Source: Oscillospiraceae bacterium
Lineage (GTDB): Bacteria; Bacillota; Clostridia; Oscillospirales; Acutalibacteraceae
Length of the DNA stretch: 64,000 bases
Reading direction: 5' to 3'
NCBI GenBank assembly: GCA_015065935.1
Contig: SVPI01000004.1
Location: forward strand, 1-64,000
Positions 28,721 to 31,664 of this stretch are shown here, piece after piece. Position 1 is the stretch's first letter. Every line of letters starts with the position of its first letter. Position numbers and translations under genes: made by a program. The notes under the pieces are model-generated. The model was given only the letters and a program-made list of their open reading frames with translations, had not been told where the DNA came from and made no database searches.

Positions 28721-28755
28721 AGACCCCGCTTCAAATTGAAGCGGGGTCTTTTTTT
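28721..28755. terminator. Bidirectional terminator
   Basis: agaccccgcttcaaattgaagcggggtctttttttc. Confidence 0.85.
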
Positions 28756-29525
28756 CTTATAAAAAATGACATAATCAGTATAAAAACTGCGGCAAAAATT
28801 AAGCAGCTTAAAAGGCAAAAAACAAAAAGAGTTATGAAATCCCTAAGGGATGCAAAATCGATGCCAAGGTTTCTGAATTTTAAAAAAATAAGGGCTGCGC
28901 CGGGCGCTGTACCAAGCATTAAAAAAGCCGAAATTAAAGCGGTTTTAAGGTACCTTTTGCTCTGCTTTTTTAAAATAAAAAACGAACTTATAAACAGCAA
29001 AGAAAATACTGTTGCCGAGGCTAAAAAAAGCCCTTTAAACCTGCCGTAAAAACGGCAGAAATAGCCTATGATTTCCGGTGTTGAGTGACCTAGCACTTCC
29101 CTTGTACAAAGGGAAACTGTTTGCTCTAAAATTTGCCTTGTTTCCTCGGAATAGCCCGATATTTTTTCCTCTGCTGCAAGGAAAATTTTGTGGCTTATTT
29201 TCTCCTTTATTTTAGTATCATCCGGGGTGAAATTCTCACCTTTAAGAGAAGAATTTATAAACGGAATAAGGTTATTTTCAATATCCCTTTCGGTAACAAT
29301 ACCACTGAAAAAGTCCTGCTCAAAGCCACCCGCCTGACCAATAAAATTTAGGCTGCCAGAGGCTTCAAGCGCGGCTTTTTTTGCATAGTCACTTTTTTCT
29401 AAAAGTGCAAAAATAACCGAGGGTGTGCCCATTGCAAAGAGCCCCCAGGAAGCAACTGCGGTAAAAAGAAAAAATGCAGTTAAAAAGGCGAAAATCGCCC
29501 TCAAAAAAGTGTTTTTTATTCTCAC
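28731..29525 (-). CDS. Uncharacterised membrane protein
   Basis: N-terminal TM and C-terminal hydrophobic segments; continuous ORF following the sortase. Confidence 0.75.
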   Translation of the reverse strand: MRIKNTFLRAIFAFLTAFFLFTAVASWGLFAMGTPSVIFALLEKSDYAKKAALEASGSLNFIGQAGGFEQDFFSGIVTERDIENNLIPFINSSLKGENFTPDDTKIKEKISHKIFLAAEEKISGYSEETRQILEQTVSLCTREVLGHSTPEIIGYFCRFYGRFKGLFLASATVFSLLFISSFFILKKQSKRYLKTALISAFLMLGTAPGAALIFLKFRNLGIDFASLRDFITLFVFCLLSCLIFAAVFILIMSFFIRKKDPASI

Positions 29526-29526
29526 C

Positions 29527-30174
29527 CTACTTCACCACCGGTCCTGATAAAAAATCGGCATAAACAAAAAATCGCTTTGCGGAAACACCAAGGCTACCCC
29601 CACCGTAATAGCAGGTGTAAAGCACCAAATTTTCCCTTTTTTCGCCTAAATCATAGGCCGTTTTATCGTTATTATTTTTAACGGCTGTACCACTTACCTT
29701 ATAAACAAAAACACCGTAATTTGTGGTAATTTTCACGATGTCCCCAACCTTTATGTTCTTAAGATTATAAAGAAACGAACTGTTGTGCCCGCCAATAAGC
29801 ACCGTAGAGCCTGTGCCGGGGAAACTGCTTCCCATATACTGGCAAAGGCCACGGGAAAGCTGATAATTTGAGTCGCCGAAAATAAGCGGAAGGCTGATAC
29901 CAAGCGTTTCGATTTCTACCCTGCCAAAGCTTTCGGAATATTTTGGGAATGTAATATCTTTTGCATTTACCACGCCCGAAAAAACGCTGCTGCCCTTAAA
30001 GGTATCGCGAATTTCGTTTGTGCCTGCCTCGGCACTTAGGGTTGCCATATTAAAAACCGAAATGCCAATATCTATTATAGGGGAAAATAAAAGATAAATA
30101 AGCAGGTAAGCTAAAATCAAAAAGACTAACGGCAATAATAAATATGCCGTTAGCCCCTGAAGTTTTTTATTCAT
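29527..30174 (-). CDS. Sortase family transpeptidase
   Basis: GGHNSSFLYNL (His), VLYTCYYGG (Cys), SAKRFFVYA (Arg) catalytic triad; ATG 30174 overlaps upstream stop. Confidence 0.88.
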   Translation of the reverse strand: MNKKLQGLTAYLLLPLVFLILAYLLIYLLFSPIIDIGISVFNMATLSAEAGTNEIRDTFKGSSVFSGVVNAKDITFPKYSESFGRVEIETLGISLPLIFGDSNYQLSRGLCQYMGSSFPGTGSTVLIGGHNSSFLYNLKNIKVGDIVKITTNYGVFVYKVSGTAVKNNNDKTAYDLGEKRENLVLYTCYYGGGSLGVSAKRFFVYADFLSGPVVK

Positions 30175-30742
30175 TATTTTCTTTTTTCTTTCTGAATGAG
30201 AAAAGGCAGGTAACATAGGTTGCCGCAATGAGGGTAAACGAAACCGCGCCGAAAACAAGGTGCCTTTCGTTTACACCTGTAACCTTAATAACCGCGGCGC
30301 CGCTGAAAACCGTTTTTCCTGCATTATCGGTTATAGTCACATTACCGCCGGAATAAACAAGTTTTAAATTCAAAACTGCGGTTGCCTTTTGAGCAAGCTC
30401 AAAAATTTCCGATTTTGCCGATGAATCAAACCTTTCAAAGTTAACATCGCCTGCACCGAATTTTTGCACCTGACCGTCTAAAACTTTAAGACCGTTTTCA
30501 ATATAGCCTAAAATTTCATTCGACTGTGCCTCGGTAACACTTACGGTTAAAAAGAAGTTTCTGGCTTGATTTACATATTCGGCAGGCAGGGTATATTCCC
30601 TATCCCCCACCGTGTAAACCATTTGAATTTTTTCAAGAATTACCTGCTCCGATGCATTTATAGTTCCCTCGGCACTAACCGAAAAGGCGCAAAGCATAAA
30701 CAGGCTTAAAAATACGCAAACAAACTTTAAAAAATTTTTCAC
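30167..30742 (-). CDS. Exported protein with C-terminal TM and basic tail, putative sortase partner
   Basis: Signal peptide MKNFLKFVCVFLSLFMLCAFSVSA; C-terminal ERHLVFGAVSFTLIAATYVTCLFSFRKKK. Confidence 0.8.
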   Translation of the reverse strand: MKNFLKFVCVFLSLFMLCAFSVSAEGTINASEQVILEKIQMVYTVGDREYTLPAEYVNQARNFFLTVSVTEAQSNEILGYIENGLKVLDGQVQKFGAGDVNFERFDSSAKSEIFELAQKATAVLNLKLVYSGGNVTITDNAGKTVFSGAAVIKVTGVNERHLVFGAVSFTLIAATYVTCLFSFRKKKENNE

Positions 30743-30810: not shown

Positions 30811-30957
30811 TTATTTTTTAATAAGCTTTGCGCGGCGGAAAATTAGGCGTGCAAGGCGCTTTTCAAGAACGGCCAGCTTTCTCTCGTTAAAAAAGCCCCA
30901 AACCACAATTCCTATTAAAATGGCCTCTATAACTGTGCTGAATACTGATAAAAACAT
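30811..30957 (-). CDS. Small (48 aa) single-TM protein, not in supplied ORF track
   Basis: ATG 30957 with RBS AGGAGGT: MFLSVFSTVIEAILIGIVVWGFFNERKLAVLEKRLARLIFRRAKLIKK*; good promoter upstream. Confidence 0.7.
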   Translation of the reverse strand: MFLSVFSTVIEAILIGIVVWGFFNERKLAVLEKRLARLIFRRAKLIKK

Positions 30958-30968
30958 AGTTACCTCCT

Positions 30969-31022
30969 AAAAAGAACATTTGTTCTTTTTCTTTATTATA
31001 CACTTTTTTGCGGCTTTGTCAA
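30969..31022 (-). promoter_or_regulatory. Sigma-A-like promoter with downstream LexA/SOS-box-like palindrome
   Basis: TTGACA-16 nt-TATAAT then AAAAAGAACA-AA-TGTTCTTTTT (core GAAC-N4-GTTC at 30974-30985). Confidence 0.7.
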
Positions 31023-31063: not shown

Positions 31064-31091
31064 GAAAGTCCCTTAAAGGGGACTTTCAGTG
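31064..31091 (-). terminator. Terminator of SLOG-family gene
   Basis: gaaagtcccttaaaggggactttc with A-tract on the left (U-tract in minus transcript). Confidence 0.75.
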
Positions 31092-31094
31092 CTT

Positions 31095-31664
31095 TTATTC
31101 ATCTTCCTCTGCTGCATCGGCAAGGGATATATAATCGCGATAGGTAAGCAGGCTTTCCTCACTGTCAGCAAGGTTTATAATTTTCTTGTTTTTCTTTGCG
31201 GCATATTTAAGGGTTGCGGCGGTGCCTCCCGGTGCTCCGTCAAAATAGGTCAGCACCAAATCGCTGTTATCAACCATAAAATCATTACGCTTAAAATAAC
31301 ACCCCTTATAATATTCCTCAGAAAGTAAGATAACCTCATCGGCATTTGTAAGCACATTATCATACCGCTTTTTCCAGCCCTCATCCCAGCCTGCTGTTTG
31401 ATTTCTAAAGGGCAATACGCAAATTAAATTAACCACGCAGTCCCCTTTTTCTTTAAGCAGTAAAACCATTTCAGCGGCTAAAATATCAAAGCCCATTGCC
31501 ATACCTGTGTAAAAGGTGAAGCAGTTTTCTTTAGGCAGAGAAAAAATCGCCTCTAAAAGGGATGCCTCAAAGGCGGCATACTTTGGGTCAGAGTCACTAA
31601 ATTCAAAGGGAAATTTAGCAGGTCTGTAGCCTGTAAAGCAACAACTAAAAGTTTTATCAGTCAT
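31095..31664 (-). CDS. SLOG family protein (YpsA/DUF1273-like)
   Basis: CCFTGYRPAKFPF, FYTGMAMGFDILAAE, APGGTAATLKYA. Confidence 0.85.
   Translation of the reverse strand: MTDKTFSCCFTGYRPAKFPFEFSDSDPKYAAFEASLLEAIFSLPKENCFTFYTGMAMGFDILAAEMVLLLKEKGDCVVNLICVLPFRNQTAGWDEGWKKRYDNVLTNADEVILLSEEYYKGCYFKRNDFMVDNSDLVLTYFDGAPGGTAATLKYAAKKNKKIINLADSEESLLTYRDYISLADAAEEDE

Follow-up and report, generated by a model that had tools for sequence, protein, structure and literature searches.

An unnamed small membrane protein of gut Clostridia appears, from the sequence around its gene, to be switched by LexA, the repressor of the SOS response to DNA damage, and it is conserved together with this switch across a bacterial family. 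By analogy with known systems, we consider it somewhat probable that the protein is an SOS membrane checkpoint effector acting on division or growth, most likely as a division inhibitor. SOS checkpoints are known from a few model bacteria. Since the SOS membrane checkpoint proteins are mutually unrelated in sequence and have only small size and one TM helix in common (PMC6051672), each such inhibitor must be found separately. The protein described herein provides such a concrete candidate in one large gut-Clostridia family: its operator and its conserved residues can be named, and a degron is probable.

Gene, promoter and putative operator

The gene lies on the minus strand of the window, the 64-kb stretch of DNA that was analyzed; the sequence-only reading had left the strand unstated. 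The promoter consists of a TTGACA −35 hexamer (31017–31022, minus strand) and a TATAAT −10 hexamer (30995–31000, minus strand) separated by a 16-nt spacer, and this is the sole 12/12 promoter match in the 4 kb scanned. The putative LexA operator AAAAAGAACAAATGTTCTTTTT follows at 30969–30990 as a perfect 22-bp palindrome with perfect 10-bp arms, and its core GAACAAATGTTC (GAAC-N4-GTTC, 30974–30985) begins 9 nt past the −10 hexamer. A Shine-Dalgarno sequence, AGGAGGT (30962–30968, minus strand), precedes the 48-aa ORF (30811–30957, minus strand), which encodes a predicted single-helix membrane protein, a tail-less variant of its family. The promoter, the palindrome with GAAC-N4-GTTC, AGGAGGT and the 48-codon ORF had all been picked out from the bare letters, and all of them are present as read.

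On the upstream side, a bidirectional terminator-like hairpin (31064–31087) is located between the small gene and a gene for a YpsA-like SLOG-family protein (31095–31664, minus strand). The second genome of the genus, a MAG of Clostridia obtained from roe deer cecum, has these two genes in the identical order, and its small protein is 94% identical to the window copy. The ORF differs by 12 nt between the two genomes, with nine synonymous and three conservative non-synonymous codon changes, and the probability of so few replacements was 0.002 in a neutral simulation of this within-genus pair. The codon changes within the genus support coding of the 48-aa ORF.

The palindrome as a probable LexA box

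GAAC-N4-GTTC is the LexA operator of B. subtilis and has been applied to clostridia (PMC4234289), in agreement with the earlier description of this motif as the core of Firmicutes LexA boxes. It occurs once in the 64-kb window, versus 0.44 occurrences expected by chance. The core alone therefore proves nothing and was rejected as evidence by itself, and the case for an operator rests on position and conservation.

The genome that contains the window encodes both recA and lexA. Its LexA carries a VTAG (Ala-Gly) cleavage site and the SGLSM and TVKRL (Ser/Lys) motifs, which we take to mark the self-cleaving type. The lexA gene is located on a different contig, flanked by a TauE/SafE-like and an RNase H-like gene (named by inspection), and its promoter reads TATAGT-TAAAAAA-GAATAAATGTTC. 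This box is one base apart from the GAACAAATGTTC of the window and lies at nearly the same distance past the −10 hexamer. The sequence-only reading had pointed to recA and lexA as places for the same box; the lexA promoter has it with one base different, and the recA promoter has none, so recA was dropped as a regulon marker in this genome. The dinB gene (Y-family polymerase, locus L118) has no box either, and with both genes lacking one, the SOS regulon of this genome may be small. A relaxed scan of the genome revealed intergenic boxes at lexA and the small gene only; because the genome is 87.5% complete and the scan covered boxes up to its mismatch limit, with more degenerate ones outside it, a two-gene LexA regulon is not proven. 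The 1.48-Mb genome contains the palindrome AGAAC-N4-GTTCT just twice, and the second copy (locus L001) has no recognizable SOS gene downstream. Two more near-boxes (loci L179 and L182) lie inside long ORFs.

In the relatives, the 200 nt upstream of the 90 homologues with upstream DNA were scanned, and the expectation was derived from shuffles. An exact GAAC-N4-GTTC was present upstream of 52 of the 90 homologues (0.14 expected), and a box allowing a single mismatch (7 or more of the 8 bases) was present upstream of 75 (4.1 expected). In 72 of these 75 box-bearing homologues, the box lies 6–17 nt past the −10 hexamer of a TTGAC-type promoter. Boxes matching 7 or more of the 8 half-site bases were also found in the lexA promoters of 18 of 25 relatives, where ~1–2 would be expected from the shuffle rate, and most of them are GAATAAATGTTC or close to it. 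The LexA box of the lineage is GAAYAAATGTTC, which occurs in the organism's own lexA promoter, in those of most relatives and, in relatives, ahead of a Y-family polymerase; a deviating consensus, which the sequence-only reading had named as a refutation, was not found. Four relatives were scanned completely. All of them have one of the rare palindromic boxes ahead of the small gene, and three have one ahead of a Y-family (DinB/UmuC-like) polymerase; one-mismatch boxes preceded lexA, and the remaining matches were mostly inside genes. The neighbors of the small gene are unrelated from genus to genus, so the gene has kept its box but not its surroundings.

Because boxes are conserved at the homologues, at lexA and at the Y-family polymerase, LexA control of the small gene is as well supported as sequence allows, and it is very likely that LexA would bind this site and that DNA damage would induce the gene. 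A repressor other than LexA might bind the palindrome, in line with the lack of boxes at recA and dinB of this genome. However, lexA and the Y-family polymerase carry the box at the same promoter position, and its sequence matches the LexA operator known from B. subtilis and clostridia, GAAC-N4-GTTC (PMC4234289), which makes another repressor highly improbable.

In this lineage, as noted at 12 loci, the lexA box mostly has one imperfect half-site (GAAT), whereas the box of the small gene is a perfect palindrome. This difference in the boxes suggests that the small gene may be repressed more tightly than lexA. A perfect box also precedes a DinB/UmuC-like polymerase at three loci of relatives (L071, L072 and L084), and the polymerase at L118 stands without one. 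Another site, GAACATGTGTTC, was observed between an XRE-type regulator and a 146-aa ORF (genome G094, locus L086, ~1500), where it is possibly a mobile-element switch.

A lineage-specific single-helix protein family

Among 300 genomes of the same taxonomic family, single-sequence tblastn detected homologues in 45, and a 43-position profile detected them in 109, covering 50 of 135 genera; about two thirds of the family genomes were without a detected homologue in the profile search. A class-wide profile search matched 3 of 388 genomes, namely the genome of the window, one family member and one weak match, which sits inside a 332-aa frame and was taken as chance. As the matches are essentially confined to one taxonomic family, the small protein represents a lineage-specific family, and the conservation in relatives that the sequence-only reading had proposed as a check holds for the ORF together with its box.

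Searches of Pfam, NCBIfam, PHROGs, PADLOC and PDB gave chance-level matches only for this family. With one relative (59 aa) as the query, tblastn produced no match at E up to 1 in phage and plasmid collections, and a phage or plasmid origin was rejected for lack of a homologue in these records. No description of the family was found in the literature searched, and small-protein catalogues may contain members without function. Most likely, the sequence family is new while its functional class is known; the family is set apart from SosA and SidA by the descriptions of those proteins.

Family members are 48–137 aa long with a median of ~80 aa (the longest depend on start-codon choice), the window copy having 48 aa, and at such sizes they are easily overlooked by annotation. 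The N-terminal TM helix is uncharged at its start and bears a near-invariant Glu, which corresponds to position 11 of the window protein. The shared motif is TIxE...WGxFNExKLIxFE; the part after the Glu reads WG-x-F-[NH]-E-x-K-L-I-x-F-E, and the basic tail that follows has a net charge of +8 on average. The window copy had been described as a single-helix protein, which is borne out by the AlphaFold2 model from the single sequence, a continuous helix from 2 to 47 with a mean pLDDT of 89. According to the positive-inside rule, the C-terminus is likely to be cytoplasmic, with the uncharged N-terminus predicted outside.

Of 90 members, 69 end in Ala, compared with ~10 expected (nominal P ~3e-47, with relatedness ignored), and the endings are mostly -VA, -CA, and -AA. 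ClpXP recognizes the E. coli ssrA tag mainly by its terminal Ala-Ala, and similar endings occur on other substrates of this protease (PMC7652416). The tmRNA tags encoded in the family genomes likewise have a terminal Ala, which nearly always belongs to an -AA; their endings are mainly -LAA, -FAA, and -KAA, against -VA, -CA, and -AA in the family, and an exact copy of the tmRNA tag was rejected as the explanation of the C-terminal motif. The terminal Ala is a putative cytoplasmic protease degron that would limit the lifetime of the protein, a proposal that we regard as evenly balanced. In the genus of the window, the small protein is without the Ala-ended tail, and the degron proposal therefore leaves out the window copy. 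A CtpA-type protease clears YneA and SosA (PMC6051672, PMC6851548) and, were the topology reversed, would by analogy be an alternative for clearance.

A proposed membrane checkpoint effector and the genes downstream

Small size, a single TM helix and SOS control, the last judged by box conservation, characterize the SOS membrane division inhibitors as a functional class, and all three were found here. The parallel with YneA drawn in the sequence-only reading stands for this class of function; it fails for the LysM domain, for adjacency to lexA and for topology, the C-terminus being predicted inside. Like YneA of Bacillus and Listeria, the protein has small size, one N-terminal TM helix, LexA control and a probably short life. 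However, YneA possesses an extracellular LysM domain that is needed for activity (PMC13396833), whereas no Pfam match to LysM was found in 29 family members. The YneA class adjoins lexA (PMC6851548), and with lexA on another contig, the YneA/SosA type of locus, adjacent to and divergent from lexA, does not occur here. SosA of Staphylococcus resembles the small protein in size, single TM helix, LexA control and lack of LysM. Its gene is divergent from lexA and its active extracellular C-terminus is cut by CtpA (PMC6851548), whereas the tail of the small protein is basic and probably cytoplasmic, and its loci are scattered. SidA of Caulobacter, likened here by description and belonging to a different phylum, is also a small SOS-controlled membrane protein, and it acts on the divisome (PMC6051672).

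TisB-type SOS peptides share with the small protein a short basic membrane helix and SOS induction, which for the small protein is predicted. A TisB-like growth-arrest peptide would depolarize the membrane, lowering its potential and slowing metabolism with no targeting of the divisome, and it would suit a small, basic, single-helix protein under a LexA-controlled strong promoter as well as the one continuous helix of the window copy. But the homologues are longer (median ~80 aa) and have an ordered conserved motif and an Ala terminus. A generic pore former would not be expected to have near-invariant residues within the TM helix and directly behind it, nor long basic tails that vary but keep a terminal Ala. 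A consensus scan of 4 kb, which could miss such a site, detected no promoter-like site for an antisense RNA facing the ORF. We consider a TisB-like peptide unlikely.

Many small single-TM proteins regulate other membrane proteins. An SOS-induced regulator of a protease, transporter or sensor kinase, serving a protective envelope response while division continues, would agree with the conserved interaction-like motif and the lack of a catalytic domain. Nothing specific speaks against it, and conserved neighbors that would name a partner are absent; we judge this role improbable.

An SOS membrane checkpoint effector is the reading we prefer because of the strong LexA-box promoter, the one TM helix, the lack of an enzyme domain, the conserved interaction-like residues and the probable instability. 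The protein, whose gene is conserved with its box across the family, probably pauses growth or division during DNA repair. In the mechanism that we propose, LexA dimers on GAACAAATGTTC just past the −10 hexamer would block the consensus promoter, and RecA filaments would cause LexA self-cleavage and strong firing of the promoter. In the membrane, the uncharged N-terminus of the protein would face outward and its basic helix inward, and the protein would contact a partner through Glu11, Trp20-Gly21, Asn/His24-Glu25, Lys27-Leu28, and Phe/Leu31-Glu32 or their immediate neighbors. This membrane partner would most likely be the septal cell-wall machinery (FtsW/PBP2b/FtsL), so that division would be delayed. 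Once LexA is restored, a ClpXP-type cytoplasmic protease would clear the members ending in -VA, -CA or -AA; the genus of the window is without such a tail.

No small LysM (YneA-type) protein was found in ten family genomes, in which all LysM open frames are at least 222 aa, so the YneA niche may be open in this bacterial family. More tentatively, the small protein could be the main LexA-controlled cell-cycle checkpoint of one large gut-Clostridia family, with an inside-facing basic tail and a cytoplasmic degron, and the visible LexA regulon in the genus of the window could have shrunk to lexA and a degron-less small gene. If true, a single type of protease would remove both the LexA fragment and the effector.

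In the genus of the window, the small gene is followed by three genes (28731–30742, minus strand), which encode a secreted/TM protein of 191 aa, a sortase resembling class D (Pfam Sortase, 1e-16) and a membrane protein of 264 aa. The small ORF might be a leader that places this operon under control, as the shared strand, the 68-nt gap without a terminator and a gene order common to both genomes of the genus would allow. However, in other genera the protein and the box persist next to unrelated downstream genes. A promoter-like TTGCTT-18-TATAAT lies ahead of the 191-aa gene, and the codon changes favor the encoded protein; we consider a leader ORF very unlikely. The sortase operon was rejected as the regulated unit because it is not conserved. 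As no terminator lies between the small gene and the sortase genes, SOS read-through into the latter is possible.
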